Positions 16,807 to 29,290 of a stretch of 64,000 nucleotides of DNA are shown here, piece after piece. Below the pieces are notes generated by a model. The model was not told the origin of the DNA and searched no databases. It worked only from the letters and a program-made list of their open reading frames with translations. The translations under genes and the position numbers were made by a program. Each line of letters begins with the position of its first letter. The stretch's first letter is position 1. Source of the DNA: Planctomycetota bacterium (GTDB lineage: Bacteria > Planctomycetota > Phycisphaerae > UBA1845); NCBI GenBank assembly GCA_024280855.1, contig JAJRPG010000096.1, positions 1-64,000 on the forward strand, read 5' to 3'.

Positions 16807-18837
16807 TCACACCTCGCCACCAAGCGCTGCATTGATGTCCTTGAATATGCTTTCCGCAGCCTCCAGCAATTCCGATGGAACGCCTTTCGGGTCACGGTAA
16901 ACGCTCTGCACTACTTCGTGAATCGGTCGCCATTTCTCGAAAGGCCCTACCTCAAGCCGCTCGAATAACTGTTGCACTCGGTCAACGACGCTGGCAGTCT
17001 TCTTTTCGCTCGCGTTGAACTTGATCTCGATTTTCGGATAGGCGACTTTCACGGCGTCCAGGTAGTATTTCTCTGGAAGGAGGTCTTCTAACTCAGTAAT
17101 CTCGTGGTCACCGCCGTAGCTGCTTATCTGAAAACACCGCTGATCGACACCCGTGAGTAACTTTCGCAACTTTTTCATTCCTTTGGCACCCGCAGGGTCA
17201 GAGTCAAGCAGAACTGCGATCTCAACATCATGTCCAATCAACATCGAGGCCAGCGGCGCAAGGTTCGTCGTTCCTCCCATAGGAACCATCACAATCGTCC
17301 GGTCGAGTCCGCATCTTCCCGCAGCTAACAAATGCTGACTGAGCGCGGACAGAAGCGTATAGTCGGTTATGCCTTCGACCATGACCTGCTTCTTCGAGAG
17401 GAACAGTGATTGGCACACTGAATAGCCAAGCGCAGCCTGCAACGGAAACAACGAGTCCCGGTCTCTAGGCCATACCTCCGTAGACACTCGCATATTGCCG
17501 TCCTCTTCGCTCAGGGCTACTGCCCGTTCAAGATGCGCGCCATCGACCATGAAGGGGCTGTGCGTCGTGTAGAAAAGCTGATTGTCGGCAGACATTTTCT
17601 CAAAAAACTCGATTAGCTTTGCCTGTGCCGTCCCATGCAAATGCAGTCCCGGCTCGTCTAGGAGCAGAATGCAATTCCGATGCAGGTCTTCTGCTTCGAC
17701 GATGAAGACGAGGTAGAACGAAAAGAAATAGCGCATTCCGGCGCTTCGCTCCTCAAGCTCAATCTCACTTGGGTTCCGGTCGTCAGATACCCAGATGCGG
17801 AAGTAATTGCCGTGGAATTCGTAGTGAAAGGCGTGAGTGCGCTGCTCCCACCAATCGCGGAAACGCTTTGTCATGGCCTGAGACGCGGCGTTGCAGCGAA
17901 TCGTCAGTTCATCTATTTCCCTTCTGGTGTTCTCGTTGTCTGGGTCTTCAGCTTTGTGTCTTCCGAGTGCGCCGAGTTTAGTAATCTCCACTCCGACATG
18001 CTTGAAAAGGCATTCCTGCACGCGCACCTCTTGTGTGTTGCGCCCCTGCCCAATCTTGGTCAGGAAGTCGGGGATGAAGATGTCGCTTTGAAGAACGCCG
18101 AGGTTGTCGAAGTAGAGGAAGTGCGGCATGTTCTGGACAACCCATTCGTCGGCCTTGCCTAATGTGGCCTCCTGTTCGAGGAGTTCCGCCATCTTCTCCC
18201 AAGGGGCGAGGAACGGTTCAAGAATCTCCTTTGCCCATTCTTCATTCATCTGTCCAGTGATCGCCTGCATAGCCGCGTTCAAGTCAGCCAAGGTCGGATC
18301 GTTTTCGTCTGCTTCGGACTTCGTGATGCAACCGTCGATAGCACTGGTGACCGCCGCCTTGACCGTCCCCCACGGCTCGCTCTTGTCGTCCGGCGGGGTG
18401 GTTCGCTCGATCTTCTTCCTCGCATCCTTGAGCGATTTCAGCCATGCGTCGTGCGACACAAGATCGAGTTTGGCTGCTGGGGAGTACTTGACGAAGACGG
18501 TATCCGAATAGTGCCTCGTCACCTCAACAGTCTTTGTCTTAGCTAACGGGGGACATACGGCTCCAAGCGCGGCACGCTCATTCTTGTCGAGCTGGAATCG
18601 CCCCGTGCCAACTGGCCAGTCCTGCTGGTCGCCTTCGCTGGTCAGGCGGCCGCGCGGAAACTCTTTGAGCTTGTCATACTTAGCCCCGTCGGTTGGGTTG
18701 AGTTTGGACAGGGCGCGAAACAAAGTCGTCTTTCCCGACTCGTTCTTGCCAACAAAGACCATCAGGTCTTCGCAGGAAATCCACCCCGTGTCTTGAATGT
18801 TCTTGTAGTTCTGTACCCGGAATGCTTCCAACCTCAT
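16807..18837 (-). CDS. OLD-family ATP-dependent nuclease (ABC ATPase plus TOPRIM)
   Basis: 676 residues. N-terminal ABC-type ATPase: Walker A GKNESGKTT near residue 30, signature-like ELEERSAGMRYFF, Walker B LLLDEPGLHLHG, and His in TTHSPFM. C-terminal TOPRIM nuclease domain: VEGITDYTLLSAL (metal-binding Glu) and VLLDSDPAG (the DxD). This is the layout of OLD and GajA-type nucleases, several of which act against phage. It sits directly after brxL in the BREX run, so it may be an accessory effector; that is inference. A 33-codon ORF ends on its start codon (TCATGA overlap), implying coupled translation. Confidence 0.88.
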   Translation of the reverse strand: MRLEAFRVQNYKNIQDTGWISCEDLMVFVGKNESGKTTLFRALSKLNPTDGAKYDKLKEFPRGRLTSEGDQQDWPVGTGRFQLDKNERAALGAVCPPLAKTKTVEVTRHYSDTVFVKYSPAAKLDLVSHDAWLKSLKDARKKIERTTPPDDKSEPWGTVKAAVTSAIDGCITKSEADENDPTLADLNAAMQAITGQMNEEWAKEILEPFLAPWEKMAELLEQEATLGKADEWVVQNMPHFLYFDNLGVLQSDIFIPDFLTKIGQGRNTQEVRVQECLFKHVGVEITKLGALGRHKAEDPDNENTRREIDELTIRCNAASQAMTKRFRDWWEQRTHAFHYEFHGNYFRIWVSDDRNPSEIELEERSAGMRYFFSFYLVFIVEAEDLHRNCILLLDEPGLHLHGTAQAKLIEFFEKMSADNQLFYTTHSPFMVDGAHLERAVALSEEDGNMRVSTEVWPRDRDSLFPLQAALGYSVCQSLFLSKKQVMVEGITDYTLLSALSQHLLAAGRCGLDRTIVMVPMGGTTNLAPLASMLIGHDVEIAVLLDSDPAGAKGMKKLRKLLTGVDQRCFQISSYGGDHEITELEDLLPEKYYLDAVKVAYPKIEIKFNASEKKTASVVDRVQQLFERLEVGPFEKWRPIHEVVQSVYRDPKGVPSELLEAAESIFKDINAALGGEV

Positions 18838-19021: not shown

Positions 19022-21070
19022 CTACTCGCACAGCGCCTTGATGAGCGCCTCGCGCGCATCAGCGTAGAACTGCACATCAACCTTGGTCGCCATGTCGTCG
19101 GGAAGCTCGAACAACTGTCGCCGGGACGACACGGGCATCAGCAGCATCGTCGCCCCTTTGTCGATGGCGAGTTCGGCCACGCCCACTGCGTTGTAGACCT
19201 GCTCGATGGTGCCGCCGAGATTGAGACCGCCCACGGCGATCAGTCCGCCCTTCATGTTCTTTTCGAGAAGCGAACCGCACAGCGCCAGCAGTGCGGGCAG
19301 ACCCACTGCCGTGCCGGAGCGTGAGGAATCGAACGCGCGAAGCTGCACGGTGAACTCGTGCGCCCTTGGATCACGGTCGCCGACAAGCTCCTTGGCGCGT
19401 GCGTAGAGATTCTGCACGCCGAAGTCCATGCTCTCCTTGAACGGCTTGGGCGTGGGCTGGTTCAGGATCTTCACGCCCGAACCCGGCCCCTCAGTAATAT
19501 CAATCCGATAGAGACCGGGGTTCTCGTCCTGACCGCCCGGACTGATCGCCCAGACTTGCCCCGGTGGTAACGGATCGGTGCCGATGCTGTCATCGCTCTG
19601 GAGTTCCGGCGTCACCACGAACTTCTCCACGCCGTCGTGGCCAATCTGATAGCTGAAATGCGTGTTGCGAAACTCGGCAGACCCGATCCGCTTCTGCTGC
19701 TCCTTCACGCGGCGACGGCACTCAAGCGCTAACCGCACCGCCCACTCCAAATCCTCGTCGGCCACGGGCATCTCCGGGTCGGGGTAGAGTAGCTTGAGCA
19801 ACCCGCTGATCGTCTTTTGCACGCCCGTCGTGTCTCGACCACTCAATGCCCCGCCGAAGAACACACGATCTTGAAGCACGGAGACCCGGCTCTGGTTTCG
19901 CAGCCGATTCCAACACTCAGCGAGGAAGTCGCTGACCAAGCCGAAGTGATCGGTGAACAGTTCCCGATTCATCTTCGGGATGTCCCAGCCCGGAAGGTAC
20001 GCATGGATGCGATCCATGAAAGGCGTTCGCTCTCGCATCTCCGTCGGAAACGGGCCAAACAGGTGGCCGATCCGCTGCTGATGAACGACATCCACATCGA
20101 AGTTGCCCACCATCACGATGCCGCCGTCTGCGCGAATGCTCTCCTTGCCCCGGCTGAACTCGCCGGATTCCATGTACCCCTGCATGATGTTGACGCCATC
20201 CTTCTGATCGAAGGACACGCCGCCAATCTCATCGAAGCACACGACATCGTATTGGCATACCAGCCCGCGCTGCCCGGTGGAGTTGTTCACGAACATCCGG
20301 GCGACGCTCGCCTTGCCGCCGGAGATCAAATGCGAATAGGGTGATACCTGCTGAAAGAGATGGCTCTTGCCCGTACCCGCTGGGCCAAGCTCGACCATGT
20401 TGTAGTTGCGTTCGACAAAAGGCACCATGCGCATCAGCACGATGTCCTGAGTGCGCTGCGAAAGCGCATCTGGCTCCAGCCCGATGCTGCGGATCAGAAA
20501 CTTCTTCCACTCCTCGGTCGTGAACATCGCACGACCCTGCGCGAGTGAGTCCAGCACTTCGCGTTTTGACAACTGGATGGGGCGGATCGCCTCAACGCCG
20601 AACGGCCTCCCGCTCTTCTCCTGTGCGATGGCCGCGTCGTAGACCAGCGTGACCTCGGCGTAGAACCCCCCAGTGAGCATCCGCTCATGCTCATGCACAA
20701 GTTCTGATGAAATGCGTGCGTCGTTCAACGACAGACTCGGAAGCTCAGCAAGGTATGAGTCCGACTTCGCATCGAGCCGCGCCTTGATGATGTCGATGAT
20801 CTTCACCGACCCCTGCTCGCGCGACCGCGACTTGAACAGTTCTTCTTCCCCAGCCCGAACAGCACGATCCGAAAGCTGCCGCGAGACGACCTTCAACCCT
20901 TCCTCGATCTCCACCGGGTCGATGCTCGCGCAGTAGCGACCGAGCAGGAACTCGCAGACATAGGTGGGTACGGGGTACTGCCCCTTGAACTGGCGTACCA
21001 AGTCCTTGCGAACGATGTACCCGTCGAATCCCTTGGCCGACAAATTATCTAGTGCGTCAAGCTCCATCAT
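19022..21070 (-). CDS. brxL: BREX protein BrxL (AAA+ plus Lon-like domain)
   Basis: 682 residues, normal length for BrxL. N-terminal domain opens with LDNLSAKGFDGYIVRKDLVR, typical of the family. AAA+ core: Walker A ELGPAGTGKSHLFQQ near residue 238 and Walker B VVCFDEIGGVSFDQ. C-terminal Lon-protease-like domain from about residue 560 (SRSGTAVGLPALLALCGSLL, GGLIAVGGLNLGG). BrxL forms DNA-loading rings and is needed for phage exclusion in type 1 BREX. It follows pglZ by seven bases. Diagnostic of BREX type 1. The Lon-like part does not show the classical DGPSAG serine motif; protease activity should not be assumed. Confidence 0.95.
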   Translation of the reverse strand: MMELDALDNLSAKGFDGYIVRKDLVRQFKGQYPVPTYVCEFLLGRYCASIDPVEIEEGLKVVSRQLSDRAVRAGEEELFKSRSREQGSVKIIDIIKARLDAKSDSYLAELPSLSLNDARISSELVHEHERMLTGGFYAEVTLVYDAAIAQEKSGRPFGVEAIRPIQLSKREVLDSLAQGRAMFTTEEWKKFLIRSIGLEPDALSQRTQDIVLMRMVPFVERNYNMVELGPAGTGKSHLFQQVSPYSHLISGGKASVARMFVNNSTGQRGLVCQYDVVCFDEIGGVSFDQKDGVNIMQGYMESGEFSRGKESIRADGGIVMVGNFDVDVVHQQRIGHLFGPFPTEMRERTPFMDRIHAYLPGWDIPKMNRELFTDHFGLVSDFLAECWNRLRNQSRVSVLQDRVFFGGALSGRDTTGVQKTISGLLKLLYPDPEMPVADEDLEWAVRLALECRRRVKEQQKRIGSAEFRNTHFSYQIGHDGVEKFVVTPELQSDDSIGTDPLPPGQVWAISPGGQDENPGLYRIDITEGPGSGVKILNQPTPKPFKESMDFGVQNLYARAKELVGDRDPRAHEFTVQLRAFDSSRSGTAVGLPALLALCGSLLEKNMKGGLIAVGGLNLGGTIEQVYNAVGVAELAIDKGATMLLMPVSSRRQLFELPDDMATKVDVQFYADAREALIKALCE

Positions 21071-21077
21071 GTATCCT

Positions 21078-23411
21078 CTATTCGCCCACCATCGTGGATT
21101 TCTTAGCTATCGTTCTGCCGTCGTTTGTCACCAGCACCACCGCAGCCGCCGTACCTTCCAGAGAATCATCTCCGACAAGCAACGCCACCGAGCCGTCCTT
21201 ACCCACCGCCTTGGCCTCCGCGAGCGATGTCGATGCATCAGCAGGCTTCGTGCGGATGTCCGCCATGAGTCCGGTCGTCGCACCGTCAACCTGCACGCGG
21301 CAACGCAATCCAACCCATTTGACGGACTTGATCGAAGCCTTTGGCCGCGCCGCCTTGCCAGCACGCACGGTGAACTCCGGGATCAGGCATTCCTGAACAC
21401 TCAAGCTCCCGTGTGCATAGTCCAACCCCGCCTTGAAGCACGAGATGCCCGGTGCCATCGCAATACGCACATCCGGCGACCAATGCCACATCATCGTCGG
21501 CACCTTTACCGACGACTTATCCTTCAACACGGCGCAGCGACCCCAGCGTGCCTCCGCCAGATAGCTCGGCATCTGCACCTTTGGCATCCCGCCGGGTAGC
21601 AGCAGCCAGCCGTGATCGGTTACTATCCGTACCTCTTCCCATCCCGCATCCAGCAAGGAGCGAATTCGATCCGCCAATCCCCGCACCTCTTCATCAATTC
21701 GCCACGACAGCTTCCATCCCTGCTTGTGGCCATTGGTGTCGATGCTGCCCGCCTCCGTCCACGCCCGCTTGTTGACATCCCCGGTGTCGTCGCCATGCAG
21801 CACATCGAACCCGCGATCAACGAGAAGCTGCCGAAACAGGTCGATGGTCAACCGCTTCCCCGATTCCTTGATCGCCGGACAAAAATCATCACCATCGCTA
21901 TCCGTACCCAGCAAGTCAGCCACAGGAGACACAGCGGGCTTGGCCGTCGCCGTCACAGGCGGCAGCGCAACCCATCGCCAGTCGGCCTCCACCTTCCACC
22001 CTTTGTCTTCCATGACGCCCTTGAGTTTCTGCGCCACATCGAATCGCAACCCGTCGGCGAAGAGAATGCAGCACCCGGTCTTGGATTCCGACAGCTCCTT
22101 GGCGTGCTGCTCCACATTCTCGCACAGACGCGGCATGTCTTTGACCAACGCCTGAAACCGCTCCGCGCCGGCTTCGAGCCACGGCTGATACACGGCGGCG
22201 ACCGCAGCATGTACGGCCTTGGCATCCTCCGACGCACGCTGGGAATGTTGAACACTCGCCAGCGCATCGAGCATAGCCGCGTCCGCCTTCCAGCCTACCG
22301 ACACATACGCCTCGGCGAACGCCTCAAGCGTGGCTCCGCCCATAGCGTCCTTGCACACCTCCGCCATGACGGCCAGATGCTCCAGCGCAATCGCCAGCGA
22401 CGCTTGGCCGAGTTCCTTCCACACCCAATCGCGGCGTTTGCCGTGAGTGTCCTCAAGTTTGATGATCGCAGCGGCTGCGTCGTTCGGTGCGAGCTTCGTC
22501 AGTTTCTCCAACGCCCCGCGCAAGTCGTCTTCCAGTTTGTCGTTATCCTGCGGCCAGCATGACTCATCGCGGAACAGGTTGTCCGGCGGGTTGGCCGCGC
22601 GTAGGCGTTCGGGGATGTGGGGATATCGCTTGGGCGCTTCGGCAAAGCGATTCCACACTGTTTGCCACTGACTCTCCTTGCGACCCAGATGCTCAGCCCC
22701 GACGATCTCGCCGTCGGCCTGCGGGTCGAAGTCGTAGTCGCTCTGACACACGCTGCGGAAGGCATCCCACTCGCTGGCGTTGAATCCGTCGCGGGTGGCC
22801 TTCGGGTCGTTGAGCCACTTGAGCAGGCTCCGCACCGGGTCGGGTGCAGCCAGCTTGTTGAAGTCCGACGCATCCAGCTTGCCCGTTAGCTCGGAGATGA
22901 GCGTGTCAGCCAGCATGGGCAGCGCCCGCTTCATCGCCTCCTGCGTCGCGGCATCACGGGCGACATCGAGACCCAACCCGCCGCCCTTGTCCGTTTGCAG
23001 GAACGCCAAAATCGTCCAGTCCTTCGCGCTGTGTTGCGTCCAGAACACGCCGAGGTATTGCAGCGCCGCCAGCGGTTGCAGGTGCGGGTCGCAGTCTTCG
23101 ACAGCCCGAAGCTCCTGCCGACTGACGCCGGGCAGGTACAGGATCGGCGTCGTCTCTTCCGGCCAGTCCGCCTCCGGCAGTGTTCGACCGATCATGCAGC
23201 GCAGCCAGATGGCCGGGCCTGTCTTGTTGGCCGTGTCGTAATCACCGAGCGTCAGGAAGTGCGGCAGGGATTCGCGCAGGCGTTCGGCCAGCGGTTCCCA
23301 CTGGCGATCCTTGTCCGTCCACAGCACGACCGCCGGAGCCACCACATCGTCGCGGTTGTAGTTTGACGCCTTCGCCAGAGATTTGATAATTGCGTCAAAA
23401 ACAGTCTTCAC
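21078..23411 (-). CDS. pglZ: BREX protein PglZ (alkaline-phosphatase-superfamily, type 1)
   Basis: About 777 residues from GTG 23411, chosen because GGGAG lies about 10 bases upstream; the track TTG start at 23471 runs into the neighbouring gene. N-terminal KTVFDAIIKSLAKASNYNRD and LWTDKDRQWEPL are the family opening. The PglZ phosphatase-like core shows CCILFADGLRFDVAQKL and RIVTDHGWLLLPGG, the metal-binding D and D/H positions of the superfamily. PglZ partners with PglX in BREX. Its 5' end is duplicated: a diverged copy of the first 43 codons lies at 24315-24443, on the other side of the gene at 23428-24252. Confidence 0.92.
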   Translation of the reverse strand: MKTVFDAIIKSLAKASNYNRDDVVAPAVVLWTDKDRQWEPLAERLRESLPHFLTLGDYDTANKTGPAIWLRCMIGRTLPEADWPEETTPILYLPGVSRQELRAVEDCDPHLQPLAALQYLGVFWTQHSAKDWTILAFLQTDKGGGLGLDVARDAATQEAMKRALPMLADTLISELTGKLDASDFNKLAAPDPVRSLLKWLNDPKATRDGFNASEWDAFRSVCQSDYDFDPQADGEIVGAEHLGRKESQWQTVWNRFAEAPKRYPHIPERLRAANPPDNLFRDESCWPQDNDKLEDDLRGALEKLTKLAPNDAAAAIIKLEDTHGKRRDWVWKELGQASLAIALEHLAVMAEVCKDAMGGATLEAFAEAYVSVGWKADAAMLDALASVQHSQRASEDAKAVHAAVAAVYQPWLEAGAERFQALVKDMPRLCENVEQHAKELSESKTGCCILFADGLRFDVAQKLKGVMEDKGWKVEADWRWVALPPVTATAKPAVSPVADLLGTDSDGDDFCPAIKESGKRLTIDLFRQLLVDRGFDVLHGDDTGDVNKRAWTEAGSIDTNGHKQGWKLSWRIDEEVRGLADRIRSLLDAGWEEVRIVTDHGWLLLPGGMPKVQMPSYLAEARWGRCAVLKDKSSVKVPTMMWHWSPDVRIAMAPGISCFKAGLDYAHGSLSVQECLIPEFTVRAGKAARPKASIKSVKWVGLRCRVQVDGATTGLMADIRTKPADASTSLAEAKAVGKDGSVALLVGDDSLEGTAAAVVLVTNDGRTIAKKSTMVGE
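23280..23408 (-). repeat. Direct repeat, pglZ 5' end, copy A (intact gene)
   Basis: 129 bases encoding residues 2-44 of PglZ. Copy B at 24315-24443 encodes 37 of the same 43 residues; the pair flanks the gene at 23428-24252. Confidence 0.85.
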
Positions 23412-23427
23412 TCGCTGCGATCTCCCG

Positions 23428-24252
23428 TTACAGTTTAGAGAATCGGCACATCCGCTCACCACGAAAGGCAACCGTTAGCCCAAAGGTCGCTACCGATTCA
23501 CGCCATGCGCGCGTTACGCTAGTATGACGCCGCCCTGTCAAACACAGGACATAGAATTGGCGGTCGAACTCGTACATGTACCGTTCCAACACTTTTGTCG
23601 GCTTCCACCCGTCGTCCGTGGCTACCCGAATGATCTCGGCCTCAAGTTCGGGTGGCAGCAGAGTCTCGGCATAACCCCACAAACAGGGGAGGGGACTCTT
23701 GTCGAGGACGAAAGCGATACGATCCGCCGATTCGAGATCGCTCGCGTAACTACCAATCACATGTCCTCCCGCAACCATCTCCTTAGCCACTGTATCCCAA
23801 AACACCTTCTTTCGGGCAGAGTCACCGCAATTCAACTCGAACACGAGACCAAGTGGCCGATCCACGAGACTCTCGAACTGGATGTCGTGGATTGGAGACT
23901 CGGTAAACACGATGTGTTTCCGGGTACCGTTCATGACGAACCGCCATTCGCGTTGCCCACTATCTAGTTCCGAGATGAAACCCGCGTCGAGCATGGAGTT
24001 CAGTTTCTCCGAAATCGCATCTGCGCAACACGCATTTGTGTCGCTTAGGACATGGGAGTGAACCGAATCGCAAGCCAGCGTTATCAGGTCGGAACCACAC
24101 CCTTGGTAGTAGCAGCACTTGTCCTCTAAGGCACCTGCTTCCGAGATCGCCGCGAATTCCTTTCGGATTTCAGACTTCGCGTTCTTGGAAGTCCCTCTTT
24201 CGAGAAGGACTTTCAGGTGTTGTTGGCGCTTTCGCGCGGCGTCGAGACTCAT
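23428..24252 (-). CDS. Unknown cargo gene inserted before pglZ
   Basis: About 274 residues from ATG 24252, which overlaps the stop of the pglZ fragment ORF. No known family. The N-terminal helix is basic (AARKRQQHLKVLLERGTSKN). Then CCYYQGCGSDLITLACDSVHSHVLSD resembles the Cys-x-x-x-Cys/His block (C..GC...I..HS) found at the start of many uncharacterised prophage and defence proteins. The C-terminal part is globular alpha-beta (YMYEFDRQFYVLCLTGRRHT). Being wedged between two copies of the pglZ 5' end, it was probably acquired later than the BREX core. Candidate phage-defence accessory; inference from position only. Confidence 0.6.
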   Translation of the reverse strand: MSLDAARKRQQHLKVLLERGTSKNAKSEIRKEFAAISEAGALEDKCCYYQGCGSDLITLACDSVHSHVLSDTNACCADAISEKLNSMLDAGFISELDSGQREWRFVMNGTRKHIVFTESPIHDIQFESLVDRPLGLVFELNCGDSARKKVFWDTVAKEMVAGGHVIGSYASDLESADRIAFVLDKSPLPCLWGYAETLLPPELEAEIIRVATDDGWKPTKVLERYMYEFDRQFYVLCLTGRRHTSVTRAWRESVATFGLTVAFRGERMCRFSKL

Positions 24253-24476
24253 GACAGTGAAAGTTCCTTTCGAGCAGCCTGTTTCTCGGAATTGGTCAGG
24301 CGGATATCGTTCACGCGGTCGGCCAGCGGTTCCCACTGACGATCCTTGTCCGTCCACAGCACGACCGCCGGAGCAACCATGTCGTTGCGATTGTAGTCCG
24401 AAGCCTTCGCCAGCGATGCAAGGATGGCATCGAACACGGTCTTGAGCGCTTTGGATGTGCTTGATTCGACCGTCAC
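24249..24476 (-). pseudogene. Truncated pglZ 5' copy (about 54 codons plus 21 novel)
   Basis: ORF of 75 codons from GTG 24476, overlapping the TGA of the upstream gene. Residues about 12-54 match PglZ residues 2-44; then the sequence departs (VNDIRLTNSEKQAARKEL) and stops, overlapping the start of the cargo gene by ATGA. This looks like the original pglZ start, cut off when the cargo arrived. It may still be translated as a coupling leader. Confidence 0.75.
24315..24443 (-). repeat. Direct repeat, pglZ 5' end, copy B
   Basis: Diverged copy of 23280-23408 (six amino-acid differences in 43, with further silent changes), so it is not a fresh target-site duplication but came from a related pglZ allele or diverged after duplication. 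Confidence 0.85.
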
Positions 24477-25102
24477 GCTACACTTGCCTCGTCTGCATCT
24501 CCCGGAAAAACAATGATCTCATACTCATCCCTGCCTTCCATGTAGGCTAGTATTACTTCTCTTGATATCTCGGCGCAGAAAATGACACACCCTTCACCTT
24601 TGTCCCTTTGCATTCGCTCAGCTACACAGATGCACGATGTCCAACTGATGCCATCTTCCTCGCCTTCGGAGCAAGCCCGGTATATTTTGACACGGTTCGG
24701 GAGTGCATCAAAAGCCGCCTTCTCATCAACATCCTTGGTGACACCCCAAATTGCTTTAGCTTTTCGGAAGAGGGTTCCCCATGCAAAACGGTCTCGATAG
24801 CAATATTCCGCATTCCTGTAGACCATTCTGATCGTCGTCGCAAACTCCCGTTTGGTCACATTTCCTTCAAGCTGCTGAACCGCCGTAACCATATCGGCGC
24901 GTGCGCGCTGGAAGACATATCTTAGGCATCGTTCTTTTTCTAAAGCGCCTCTCAGCGCTTTCAGTTTCTGCGCATCATCCGGTATCCTAAATCCTGTCTT
25001 GCCGAGCGCGTCCCAGACTTCCTCAAAGGAAGGAAACTGGATACTTGTCTTGTCTTTCCCATCGCTAGGCGAGTCGTTTTGGCAATCTCGATCCTCAACC
25101 AT
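24473..25102 (-). CDS. ART-fold-like protein in BREX locus
   Basis: 209 residues. The N-terminal half is helical (FPSFEEVWDALGKTGF). The C-terminal half reads NRVKIYRACSEGEEDGISWT, a strand, GCVIFCAEISREVILAYMEG and EYEIIVFPGD. This order (YRG/A...GISWT...V..A.V..DILAY...R.E.EIVV.P) matches a family of phage-associated proteins that looks like the ADP-ribosyltransferase fold. I cannot say whether it is catalytically active. It starts inside the last codons of pglX and ends on the GTG of the original pglZ start, so it is embedded in the BREX operon. Candidate effector or anti-host-range factor; inference. Confidence 0.6.
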   Translation of the reverse strand: MVEDRDCQNDSPSDGKDKTSIQFPSFEEVWDALGKTGFRIPDDAQKLKALRGALEKERCLRYVFQRARADMVTAVQQLEGNVTKREFATTIRMVYRNAEYCYRDRFAWGTLFRKAKAIWGVTKDVDEKAAFDALPNRVKIYRACSEGEEDGISWTSCICVAERMQRDKGEGCVIFCAEISREVILAYMEGRDEYEIIVFPGDADEASVA

Positions 25103-28100
25103 GCTGCTTCACCTCCATGCGCACTACTCGCTTTTGATCGAGCGTCAGGTGATGGTCGTTGATCCGCTCGCCACCAAACTCGTCGTACCAAGGCAAGCCC
25201 GGTGGGTTCTTGCCGCGATCCTTTTTCCACTTGATGTTGGGTTTCTTGCGCACGATGTTCGCCTCCATGAAGGGGCGGATGTTCATGCGCACGCCGTCGT
25301 TGAGGTCGGGGTTCCAGCCGATGGCCTGCTCTTCGATAGGCTTCCATCGCACGAAGATGTCATACGGCGGCTCGCCCTCGGCGATCAGCTTGAGCTTTTC
25401 TTGGAGCTGCTGCGCCGCCAGCAGTCGGGCATCCGCGCCGGACTCGTCTTGCGCGACGGCTTGCTCCTGCCGTTTGATCCAGTCACCGAGATAGGTGTAG
25501 ATCAGGCGGTCGAGCAGCTTGGCATCGAACATGTGGTAGTTGACCAGCGCGCCAAATCCATCCTGCTTGCGACCGTCCCAGATGTGCCAGATGAACGGGC
25601 GTTGGTCGAACATCTTTTGATGTTGCTCAAAGAACCCATTGCGTATCCACTCATCGAGGCTCTTGCCACTGTATCCAACTGATGCCAGCAGCTCCTCCTG
25701 CATCGCGGGTGACCAAACGCTACCATAAGACTCAGACAGGATGGCCCGCACACGATCCGCCGCTGCACGCTCTCCGCGAACTGCTGGGATGCACACAATT
25801 CCATCGTCGTCGGTGAAACTCAATAGTTCGTCACACCGCTCAACCAACCCTCGCGCTCGCTTGCTCAGGTGCATGGTGTCATCGAGTTCTGATGGCCAAC
25901 GATAGCCCAGCAACCTAGCCACGCCTACTTGTAATGGTGAGGTGGACATCTCCGGCCAACCGTGGAATAGCCACTGCGTGGGATCATCGCTCTCCGGTTC
26001 AGGTAGGCCAGCCGGGTACTTCTGGAGTGCCACTTCCTGCCAGTGTTTGAGGTCGAAACTGATCTTGCCCACATTCCCATTGGTGACTTTCAGCGATTGG
26101 TCAATCGCGCGAACGGATTGGGAAAGGTCTCCAGACTCGGCGAAACACCACAGGGCATCGACGATGGTTTGGTCTGACGGCACAAGGACGCCAGTGTTTT
26201 GGTTGAACGGAATGCCGATGTAAAGACTCGCGGGCAGATCGCTCATCAAGCTGATGACGACACCGCGACGCCCCCAGAATTGAGACCCCGCTTTCCAGAT
26301 TCCACTCTTGTAGCCATTGAGTGCCATGTCTTCCATGTATGAGTAAAGCTGACCGCTTCCATGTTCCCAGCGGACGATTTCACTCACTCCACCGAACATC
26401 ATGGTTGTGTCCACTGTAGATTGTGACGGCAACCAGATTTCGCCCCAGTGCTGCACCTCCCAGAGTTTGAACAGAAAGCGTGGCAGATCGAAAGTCTGCA
26501 TCCCTGTTCCTGTGGATGCATGTGAACTGAGCAGAACTCCCTGTTCTTCTGGAACGGTTGTTATCCGAGCATCTGGGTTATCGCGCTGCTGCTCTTGGCG
26601 AATGACGAACATACCCGCTTGGTGATCGGAACGAAGTTGAGCAGCTTTCTCGTCGGGTTGCCTTACCGCTGAGACATCGAACCCAACCATTTCGTGGGCG
26701 ACTGCGGGCGTAGTTGCTGACAGAGCGAGCAGAGCCACATTCACCACATGCCCACCGATAGTCTCGAACGCACCAGCACCAAGGCGGGCGACCGAATTCC
26801 ATGTTCGATGCTTTAGCAAGTCTTCGCGCAGCTTGGTATAGGTAGTGAGGAACAGCCAGTTCTGCGGTGTGACGAGAGCGACCGTGCAATCTTTGGCACA
26901 GTAGTCCAGACATCGGATGACAAATGCCGTCGCAAGATCAGCCTTGCCTTTATTGTAGTGCTTCGCCAGATGAGCCTTGAGAGTATCGCCCTGTTTGCCC
27001 CGCCCAAGGTATGGCACATTAGTGATGACAAGCGTGTAATCACTGGCCAACAATTCAGCAGCCTTGACCATCCCCGCAGCGGCGATGGCGCGCTCATGCA
27101 CCTCGTCGTCGGCGTGTTCGGCTGTCAGCGCGGCGGCAAGGTAGGGTTGGAGCGTCTCGTAGTCGGCGGCGATAAGGTCGCCGGGAAGTTCACTGGGGTC
27201 GATCAGAGAACCGAGCGTCGGAGCCTGCGAGAACAGAGAGTGCAGGTTGCGCAGCCCTTCAAGGATCGGCTGCTTGCCGATGGCAGGCATGGGGACACCG
27301 GACTGCTCGGCAAGTTCAAGCCACTGCTCCTCGGTCGCGTGCGGCGCGATGCCGGAACAGGCGATGTGCAATTCGGGAAGTTCTCGATATCCGCCCGCGT
27401 CGGGGAATCGCCACGCCGCAAGCGCCAGCGCGAATGCCGCGATCTGCGTACATCGCTGGTCGATCTCAAGGCCGAAGATGTTGTCGCGCAAAACGGCATC
27501 GCAGGCATCGCTCGGCGATAGCCCTTCCTCCTTCATGCGAATACGCACCATCAGGTCGAACGACGCAACGAGAAAGTGACCCGACCCGCAGCAGGGGTCG
27601 AGTATCTTCAAGTCCTTGGCTTCTGTTGGCCAGCCGGAGAATGTTCCTGCCGCAGGCGTGCCGTCGGGCAGGAAGCGCAGGTACTCGAAATCGCAACCGG
27701 GCAGTGCCACGCGCTTGCGCCACTCGTCTTCGGAGAGTTCTTCCTTGTCCGCTCCCTCACGGTCGCGGCTCTGCAAGGCTTTGCCCGCCCACCACGCACC
27801 GAGTGTGTTGTGCAGCAGGAACAGCACCATGTAGTGTTCGGTGAAAAGCTGCGTGACGGCGGGCAGTTCGTCCGCGCCGATCTTGACGCCCGATGCGTTG
27901 ACCTCATCCTTGCGCTTGTCCTGCCAGAACTGGTAGACCCAGCCGAGGCTATCGTCGGCGGTGAACACATCCGGCGGCAGCGTGTCGAGCATCTTCTCCA
28001 ACGCCCGCTTGGATTCCGGCGCGAGCGTGACGGCCAGCACCGGATCATCAGGCCGGAAGATTTGCGGCAGCATCCGCGACGCGAACCGGGCAGCAAGTGT

Positions 28101-28484
28101 CCAGCCGTCGATCCCGTCGTCTTTGGCAAGCTCCTCGCATTCTTCAAGACTAACGGGGACGCCTTCTTCATCGTGGATGAGCAGGTGGTTCTCCGCGAGA
28201 AACCGGGCGAACAGCATTCGATGCCAGTGTTCGTATGCACACTCAACGGCGAGATGATCGATGGCTTGCTTGCCCGCCTTGTCGCGGCGGTCGCCAAGCT
28301 GGCGAGCCTTGGCGCGGAGCTTCTTGCGAAGCTCCTTCCCGTCGGGCGTCATGTGGTCAAAGGGCTTGGCCTGATCGACGGCCAGCCCTTTCAGCGCCTC
28401 CCGCGCCGCATCCTCGGCGATGTCTCGCGCCTTGATGACGGTTTTTTCGAGTTGCTTGCGAAGTTTCTGATGCAGTGCGGGCAT
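25095..28484 (-). CDS. pglX: BREX adenine-specific DNA methyltransferase PglX
   Basis: 1129 residues, within the family range. SAM-binding motif LDPCCGSGHFLVASFD near residue 295 and the catalytic motif in the form TNVPYLGRGKQ (an NPPY variant with Val at position 2) near residue 490. The central and C-terminal parts form the target-recognition region. PglX methylates host DNA at an asymmetric adenine site so that BREX can tell self from phage. Lies between the HEPN-like pair and the ART-like gene. ATG 28484. The NVPY form is seen in other BREX PglX proteins, so it is not evidence of inactivation. Confidence 0.93.
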   Translation of the reverse strand: MPALHQKLRKQLEKTVIKARDIAEDAAREALKGLAVDQAKPFDHMTPDGKELRKKLRAKARQLGDRRDKAGKQAIDHLAVECAYEHWHRMLFARFLAENHLLIHDEEGVPVSLEECEELAKDDGIDGWTLAARFASRMLPQIFRPDDPVLAVTLAPESKRALEKMLDTLPPDVFTADDSLGWVYQFWQDKRKDEVNASGVKIGADELPAVTQLFTEHYMVLFLLHNTLGAWWAGKALQSRDREGADKEELSEDEWRKRVALPGCDFEYLRFLPDGTPAAGTFSGWPTEAKDLKILDPCCGSGHFLVASFDLMVRIRMKEEGLSPSDACDAVLRDNIFGLEIDQRCTQIAAFALALAAWRFPDAGGYRELPELHIACSGIAPHATEEQWLELAEQSGVPMPAIGKQPILEGLRNLHSLFSQAPTLGSLIDPSELPGDLIAADYETLQPYLAAALTAEHADDEVHERAIAAAGMVKAAELLASDYTLVITNVPYLGRGKQGDTLKAHLAKHYNKGKADLATAFVIRCLDYCAKDCTVALVTPQNWLFLTTYTKLREDLLKHRTWNSVARLGAGAFETIGGHVVNVALLALSATTPAVAHEMVGFDVSAVRQPDEKAAQLRSDHQAGMFVIRQEQQRDNPDARITTVPEEQGVLLSSHASTGTGMQTFDLPRFLFKLWEVQHWGEIWLPSQSTVDTTMMFGGVSEIVRWEHGSGQLYSYMEDMALNGYKSGIWKAGSQFWGRRGVVISLMSDLPASLYIGIPFNQNTGVLVPSDQTIVDALWCFAESGDLSQSVRAIDQSLKVTNGNVGKISFDLKHWQEVALQKYPAGLPEPESDDPTQWLFHGWPEMSTSPLQVGVARLLGYRWPSELDDTMHLSKRARGLVERCDELLSFTDDDGIVCIPAVRGERAAADRVRAILSESYGSVWSPAMQEELLASVGYSGKSLDEWIRNGFFEQHQKMFDQRPFIWHIWDGRKQDGFGALVNYHMFDAKLLDRLIYTYLGDWIKRQEQAVAQDESGADARLLAAQQLQEKLKLIAEGEPPYDIFVRWKPIEEQAIGWNPDLNDGVRMNIRPFMEANIVRKKPNIKWKKDRGKNPPGLPWYDEFGGERINDHHLTLDQKRVVRMEVKQHG

Positions 28485-28499
28485 TACTTAGTTCCTAGG

Positions 28500-28985
28500 T
28501 CAAGCGGTGATCCGGAGCAGGTTTTCAACAAGCCTAACTAGCTTGACCATATGTGCGTGCTTCGGGTTGAAAACAGGAAAGGCAAACGACGCTGGATAAA
28601 CAACTTGGCCATCGGCCTTCGGTTGCCAAGGGTATTCAGGGTTCGGCTGAGAAAAGCCCGCATAGGAGGGAGCAAGTCGCTGAATCTGCTCGGCAAGGGG
28701 CAACAACGAATTGATAAACGAGCGAAAAACTGACCTTTCTTTGTATCCGAGCTGCCGTCGCAAGTCCGGGCGTCCTCTGATATGGTGAAGTAGCCGAACA
28801 AACCCAGCATGCGTCTTGGCCGGAGGAGCGTTTTTCTGGGGCGCCAAGAGACCCTTCGCCAGTTTCTCAGTTACCATTTGCAGGTAGTGCAATTGATGCG
28901 AATAGTCGCAGCGCTTGCGATTCAGAAGGACTCGTATCTCGGCGTCACTACGAGCTTGGGCTAGGAATGCTTCGCGCCAGTTCAT
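28500..28985 (-). CDS. HEPN-like protein between brxC and pglX
   Basis: About 161 residues from ATG 28985, which overlaps the stop of the upstream gene (ATGA). The first 80 residues (WREAFLAQARSDAEIRVLLN, SHQLHYLQMVTEKLAKGLL) match the two-helix entry of HEPN-type proteins, with an H-x3-F-x2-L-like block after it. HEPN proteins are often RNases or toxin-like partners of nucleotidyltransferases. No nucleotidyltransferase is next to it; its partner here is the 102-residue protein. HEPN assignment is by pattern, not certain. It is an accessory in a position of BREX loci known to carry variable genes. Confidence 0.55.
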   Translation of the reverse strand: MNWREAFLAQARSDAEIRVLLNRKRCDYSHQLHYLQMVTEKLAKGLLAPQKNAPPAKTHAGFVRLLHHIRGRPDLRRQLGYKERSVFRSFINSLLPLAEQIQRLAPSYAGFSQPNPEYPWQPKADGQVVYPASFAFPVFNPKHAHMVKLVRLVENLLRITA

Positions 28986-29290
28986 TCTCCATCCTCCAGC
29001 TCCACGGCGCTGTCCCAATCACCCCAGTCTGGTGGAAGCTTCAGTTTGCGAAACTCATCGGGCCTAATCAGCGCAACCCCCGATGGCGCGGGCAGGTCAT
29101 CGGACGGCGACGGCTTGAAAAAGAACGGATGCACATGCTCGTCGTCGCTCTGTGGGATTGTCGAATGAAGTTCGACGAGGCGAACCTCGTTGTCATTTGG
29201 AAACCAAAATACCTTGCTGATCTCTGGGTCGGATTGCCTGTTTTCCTTGGCAAGCAACTCGGCTTGGCGTTTCACATCTGATTTCTGCAT
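28982..29290 (-). CDS. Small partner of the HEPN-like protein
   Basis: 102 residues, no known fold assigned. Sequence begins with a helix (AELLAKENRQSDPEISKVFW), then strands FWFPNDNEVRLVELHSTIP and the proline-rich FFFKPSPSDDLPAPSGVALI, ending GDWDSAVELEDGE. Overlaps the HEPN-like gene, so the two are probably a translated pair. The layout is that of a toxin with a small neutralising or sensing partner (inference). It lies 29 bases after brxC. Confidence 0.6.
   Translation of the reverse strand: MQKSDVKRQAELLAKENRQSDPEISKVFWFPNDNEVRLVELHSTIPQSDDEHVHPFFFKPSPSDDLPAPSGVALIRPDEFRKLKLPPDWGDWDSAVELEDGE

Follow-up and report, generated by a model that had tools for sequence, protein, structure and literature searches.

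Two stacked cargo units and a pglZ/pglX fusion ORF in a planctomycetal type-1 BREX operon, probably assembled by recombination between BREX alleles

In the BREX phage-defence operon of a Planctomycetota bacterium, the 5′ end of pglZ is present twice: once at the head of the intact gene, and once further upstream, with another gene in between. What kind of event leaves a second gene start inside an operon that otherwise appears complete? The original prediction for this locus held that the duplicated pglZ start flanks a cargo gene, that recombination with another pglZ rather than a simple insertion was responsible, and that BREX loci might pick up accessory genes in this way. Here, we describe the locus within a window of 64,000 nucleotides, the whole stretch of DNA that was analysed (positions 1 to 64,000 of contig JAJRPG010000096.1, assembly GCA_024280855.1), and place it among related BREX loci.

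The BREX operon and the repeated pglZ start

The genes of the operon lie on the minus strand in the order brxA, brxB, brxC, a 172-codon ORF, pglX, cargo 1, a 75-codon ORF, cargo 2, pglZ and brxL. PADLOC recovered all six type-1 BREX genes on one strand and in order: brxA (34101-33313), brxB (33320-32760), brxC (32763-29320), pglX (25095..28484; the BREX methyltransferase gene, full length against model PDLC02528 with 1626 bits), pglZ (21078..23411) and brxL (19022..21070; 968 bits, with the Pfam domains BrxL_ATPase and BrxL_N). The 777-aa product of pglZ belongs to the class of the NCBI ‘type B’ equivalog (NCBIfam BREX_PglZ_1_B, E=3e-273). The 172-codon ORF between brxC and pglX (28500-29018, minus strand) has no NCBIfam match and possibly marks a second accessory slot. 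brxL is directly followed, with no change of strand, by the gene of an OLD/AAA_15 ATPase that carries a TOPRIM domain (16807-18837), likely another defence gene. Two genomes of the same genus (G918 and G930) carry no PglZ match, and the BREX operon is thus not genus-wide.

pglX forms the upstream border of the cargo slot, and its last codons overlap cargo 1 (24473..25102, minus strand; 209 aa). Termed ART-like in the original prediction, cargo 1 has no match in Pfam, PADLOC or NCBIfam; it is 28% identical to a hypothetical protein of Agrobacterium plasmids, with which it shares the SWT and ExE pattern, part of the R-S-E motif, the Arg not being common to both. A PDB match of cargo 1 to erbB-2 was judged a Cys-rich chance match, and its AlphaFold model was unusable (pLDDT 39.5), as was that of cargo 2 (pLDDT 41.0). 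For cargo 2 (23428..24252, minus strand; 274 aa), searches of Pfam, PADLOC and NCBIfam, of plasmids, phages and viral contigs, and of 392 phylum genomes all came back empty. Neither cargo gene has a donor or single-unit relative among the related loci, plasmids, phages, viral contigs and phylum genomes searched.

Within 20.0-26.0 kb, a repeat search with a minimum length of 25 nt returned a single direct repeat, 23272-23408 / 24307-24443, which spans 137 nt at 82% identity; the repeat region occupies a single place in the assembly, and PglZ searches of the genome matched the intact gene and the second copy only. The duplication of the pglZ 5′ end was thus correctly predicted, as was the assignment of copy A (23272-23408) to the start of the working gene, that of the intact 777-aa PglZ. 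The native leader of this gene was lost at the cargo 2 border, and translation starts from an internal GTG behind GGGAG. Copy B, in keeping with the prediction, retains the original start: the pglZ-derived half of the 75-codon ORF (24315..24476, minus strand) carries the leader MTVESSTSKAL and the native GTG, which overlaps the TGA of cargo 1 (GTGA, 24476-24473). A locus of the same family, L171, has kept its native leader, with the GTGA overlap and the leader length as in copy B.

Where the prediction had copy B break off, we instead find it continuing in frame into another gene. The 75-codon ORF (24249..24476, minus strand) comprises ~53 pglZ codons, the leader of ~10 residues included, followed by the last ~22 codons of a pglX (24249..24320). 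It ends in DRVNDIRLTNSEKQAARKELSLS, and its stop codon at 24249 overlaps the ATG of cargo 2 (ATGA). In tblastn searches against about a hundred related BREX loci, the best matches of this tail were PglX C-termini, those of L043, L048, L052 and L053 among others, with E from 1e-5 and identities of 79% over 19 aa (L043), 78% over 18 aa (L048) and 64% over 22 aa (L053). The window’s own PglX ends differently, at only 40% identity over 20 residues, so the tail derives from another pglX allele. The GACCGC at the joint (24320-24315) is compatible with both parents, as reconstructed from relatives. The layout is pglX - cargo 1 - (pglZ5′/pglX3′) - cargo 2 - pglZ, that is, two pglX-cargo-pglZ junctions head to tail. 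While the repeat does flank a cargo gene, the picture of a single flanked cargo gives way to two stacked cargo units with a scar between them, the pglX half of which had been missed.

The two pglZ copies agree at 37 of 43 residues, as the prediction stated. Over the same 43 codons they differ at 21 nt, 15 of these at third positions, which amounts to 13 synonymous and 6 non-synonymous codon differences (dN 0.07, dS 0.60-0.70). The resulting dN/dS of about 0.1 indicates that both copies diverged as functional alleles and, therefore, that two BREX alleles recombined. When both copies were compared with related pglZ, the pglZ start of L171 was nearer to copy B (85.5%) than to copy A (77%); no crossover point or step between resident and donor sequence was visible along pglZ in the comparison with L171, and the crossover cannot be placed along this gene. 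Together with the foreign pglX tail, the excess of synonymous change upholds the predicted recombination with another pglZ; a simple insertion is disfavoured because it is unable to supply that tail.

Scars and cargo units in related BREX loci

To place the window among its relatives, we used a locus set comprising 80 PglZ relatives in GTDB genomes, 10 viral contigs and further Planctomycetota genomes, with near-duplicates removed; 93 loci were resolved at the pglX end as well as at the pglZ start. The gap between the two genes (median 1,764 nt) was shorter than 150 nt in 20 of these and longer in 73. Genes within the interval are mostly of accessory defence types: AAA_21/AAA_15, Schlafen-AlbA_2 with HATPase_c_4, GmrSD, DUF4276, HSP70, YhcG, AIPR, Fic and AbiEii. 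Loci with a filled and with a near-empty interval can both be found at this point; no single-unit relative of the window’s own cargo was among them.

Truncated pglZ starts and/or pglX ends, which we refer to as scars, are present in 7 of the 73 cargo-bearing loci, the window included. An in-frame pglZ5′/pglX3′ fusion ORF is shared by the window, L097 (Verrucomicrobiales) and L067 (Thiohalocapsa), and in L175 a pglX tail lies in frame behind a 37-codon stub. The pglZ head stands alone in L104 (~38 codons), L086 (~190 codons, running into an AlbA domain as a fusion) and L039 (~70 codons, frameshifted). An eighth locus with a pglZ head, L059, falls outside this count, as its pglX lies off the contig. 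The short pglZ head of L067 scores against its own PglZ at a level reached by 0 of 2,000 shuffles. In L097, the joint is resolved to the base: the 6 nt microhomology CGCCTC is present in both parents, and each half of the scar matches its intact gene at 94-95% identity.

Other gene ends, searched by the same method as controls, yielded no truncated second copies at the brxL start (105 loci), the brxL end (73), the brxC start (16), the brxC end (52) or the pglX start (63), and a partial second copy of the pglZ end in 1 of 106 loci. With these controls near-empty, the fragments stem almost exclusively from the two gene ends bordering the interval. In E. coli, where PglZ is of type A, the pglZ 5′ end maps to 340 places across 339 genomes; this species thus almost lacks scars, and its BREX loci offered no useful case.

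Several candidates were set aside. Extra pglX tails in L035 and L051 proved false: the pglX ORF of L035 runs into an ATPase gene and had polluted the HMM, and both signals were gone once the HMM was rebuilt. The second pglX end of L164 belongs to a complete second pglX, the pglZ of L152 (G465) is cut off beside a transposase-like ORF and was not counted, and the decayed loci L153 and L155 were left out of the scar count. Some of these loci, as well as L067, display features of their own. L164 (1049-8118, reverse complement) has two complete tandem pglX genes of 1193 codons each before one pglZ, perhaps for two methylation specificities. In L035 (2688-7235), the pglX ORF continues without a stop into the ATPase cargo gene, either as a real fusion or through a lost stop codon. 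The pglZ of L152 (G465:C515, 3877-4865, reverse complement) stops at codon ~46 beside the transposase-like ORF, at the contig end. In L067 (1970-2257), an in-frame TAG interrupts the pglX of Thiohalocapsa halophila ~43 codons short of its end; the duplicated tail within the scar reads through without a stop.

The units of other composite loci are found singly elsewhere. In L175, the first cargo corresponds to that of L171 (57%), a locus from the family to which the window belongs; the second unit consists of a large AAA-type and an AlbA-type protein and matches the L042 cargo pair (42 and 60%). In L104, a 322-aa protein and GmrSD make up the second unit, which recurs as the cargo of L103 (50 and 55%). 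Relatives of the AAA-type and AlbA-type second unit of L067 lie between pglX and pglZ in L036, L038, L042 and L054, and the first unit of L097, an AAA_15 cargo, also precedes pglZ in L055 (62%). Within one family, L173 and L175 are 86% identical in pglX and 89% in pglZ, with entirely different cargo. The scars and the separate occurrence of composite units support the suggestion that BREX loci gain accessory genes by this route.

A proposed route and its alternatives

Taken together, these data make it likely that the pglX-pglZ interval of type-1 BREX with a type B PglZ is a cargo slot, and that in the window two units were stacked in it by recombination of two BREX alleles. Each cargo unit would formerly have occupied a pglX-cargo-pglZ junction of its own. 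A piece of one allele, running from the pglX 3′ end through cargo 2 to pglZ, would have become attached, through an illegitimate joint at chance homology of only a few bases, to the pglZ 5′ portion behind cargo 1 of the other allele; homologous recombination in the flanking core genes would have closed the other side, leaving the stack bordered, as observed, by one intact pglX and one intact pglZ, and the 75-codon ORF would be the leftover scar. The order of these events, the side of the donor and the mechanism, putatively homology-facilitated illegitimate recombination of incoming DNA, are inferred; the fusion itself, the descent of the two copies from different alleles, the scars of unrelated loci, the separate units of other composites and the L097 microhomology are direct observations. 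As the same kind of leftover is present in unrelated bacteria, the scar can be read as a record of extra genes being stacked by recombination with another BREX locus. Joints that are in frame may persist through translational coupling of the operon: with the start and stop codons of adjacent genes overlapping, a scar in frame would let ribosomes carry on into cargo 2, and an out-of-frame joint would lower cargo 2 expression.

The main rival to this reading starts from two complete BREX operons in tandem, in one genome or as a chromosome with an integrated element, from which a deletion reaching from pglZ to the end of the second pglX would have been resolved at a microhomology. The structure would be identical and would need one illegitimate joint; what we see in the window fits incoming DNA and the collapse of a tandem alike, and L164 demonstrates that two full pglX genes can stand in tandem. 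However, two complete pglZ genes side by side occur in 0 of 109 non-redundant loci, and the window’s own genome has one BREX pglZ; we regard a collapsed tandem as unlikely. An in-place duplication of the pglZ start, for instance a target-site duplication upon insertion of cargo 2, would explain why this gene is directly flanked by the repeat, but 137 nt at 82% identity with mostly synonymous differences (dS 0.6-0.7) are far too diverged for such an origin, the pglX tail is left unaccounted for and contradicts it, and no transposase or integrase gene lies between the copies, which makes it highly improbable. Insertion of a transposon or site-specific cassette is not supported, with no transposase or integrase gene in the interval and breakpoints that scatter across loci from codon ~18 to ~190.

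Just as improbable is an assembly artefact in which reads of two BREX loci were joined at the repeat. The window does come from a 112-contig assembly, but with 18% of sites differing between the copies an assembler would have met no long exact repeat at which to go astray, and the same type of scar recurs in assemblies made independently, including a 4.32 Mb genome in a single contig (L175, G780) and isolates (L039, L067). The fusion ORF could alternatively have been selected in its own right, as a functional small protein made of a PglZ head and a PglX tail or as a kept translational bridge. In each of the four scars with a pglX tail, the frame is open and preceded by an upstream start codon (about 1/81 by chance, from four cases only), and the start/stop overlaps are kept at both ends of the window’s scar and also in L067. 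Against this, the halves vary widely in length (about 18-60 pglZ and 22-98 pglX codons) and have no domain in common, the reading frame of other scars is shifted or closed immediately (L039, L104), and four cases are few; selection on the ORF itself appears rather doubtful. We retain recombination between two BREX alleles as the preferred explanation. More tentatively, and with somewhat less than even confidence, we suggest that the pglX-pglZ interval of type-1 BREX operons acts as a recombination-driven capture slot, in which defence units of the form ‘pglX tail - cargo - pglZ head’ may travel between distant bacteria and stack, with in-frame scars kept by coupled-chain translation.

Significance and relation to known systems

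Gene gain in defence islands is usually deduced from gene content rather than from joints, and these scars are such joints. They show that recombination between BREX loci is able to add cargo, the core genes providing the homology and no mobile element being involved. They also offer a signature to search for, a pglZ head or pglX tail left truncated among cargo genes, and point to accessory genes that have travelled with BREX; for the window, a pglX ending in ...RVNDIRLTNSEKQAARKELSLS ahead of cargo 2 would mark the donor type. The scar-based route can be tested in competent laboratory strains. In a search of the open literature, with subscription papers and preprints outside its scope, neither pglZ-head/pglX-tail scars nor this acquisition route turned up.

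Accessory genes between pglX and pglZ, as single cases (PMC9009780), and the mechanism proposed here are each already known, and additional genes within BREX clusters are listed in a review (PMC12707154). In the StySA BREX locus, as presented in the accessible part of the report, Salmonella LT2 and E. coli HS differ by a pglX-pglZ indel with ATPase and DUF4435 genes (PMC9009780). Two accessory genes thus occupy the same slot as in the window, but they form one cargo unit beside a type A PglZ, and that part of the report describes no duplicated gene ends. BrxU of the pEFER BREX island is likewise an accessory defence gene, a GmrSD-like type IV restriction enzyme, within a BREX operon; unlike the cargo described here, it sits between brxC and pglX, and the accessible portion of the source mentions no scar (PMC8565348).

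Transformable bacteria are known to undergo homology-facilitated illegitimate recombination, in which one side is homologous and a few bases suffice to join the other (PMC5361080, PMC3240628). There it was shown experimentally with marker DNA, whereas here it is deduced from natural joints. It has been proposed for the arrays of orphan immunity genes in the T6SS of Vibrio cholerae, in which, as in the BREX loci, modules are added serially beside a conserved gene and truncated remnants are left behind (PMC5361080). In the T6SS arrays, which belong to a secretion system, the old effector gives way to the incoming module while its immunity gene stays behind (PMC5361080), whereas in the BREX operon described here the older cargo survives whole and the scar joins the ends of two core genes.
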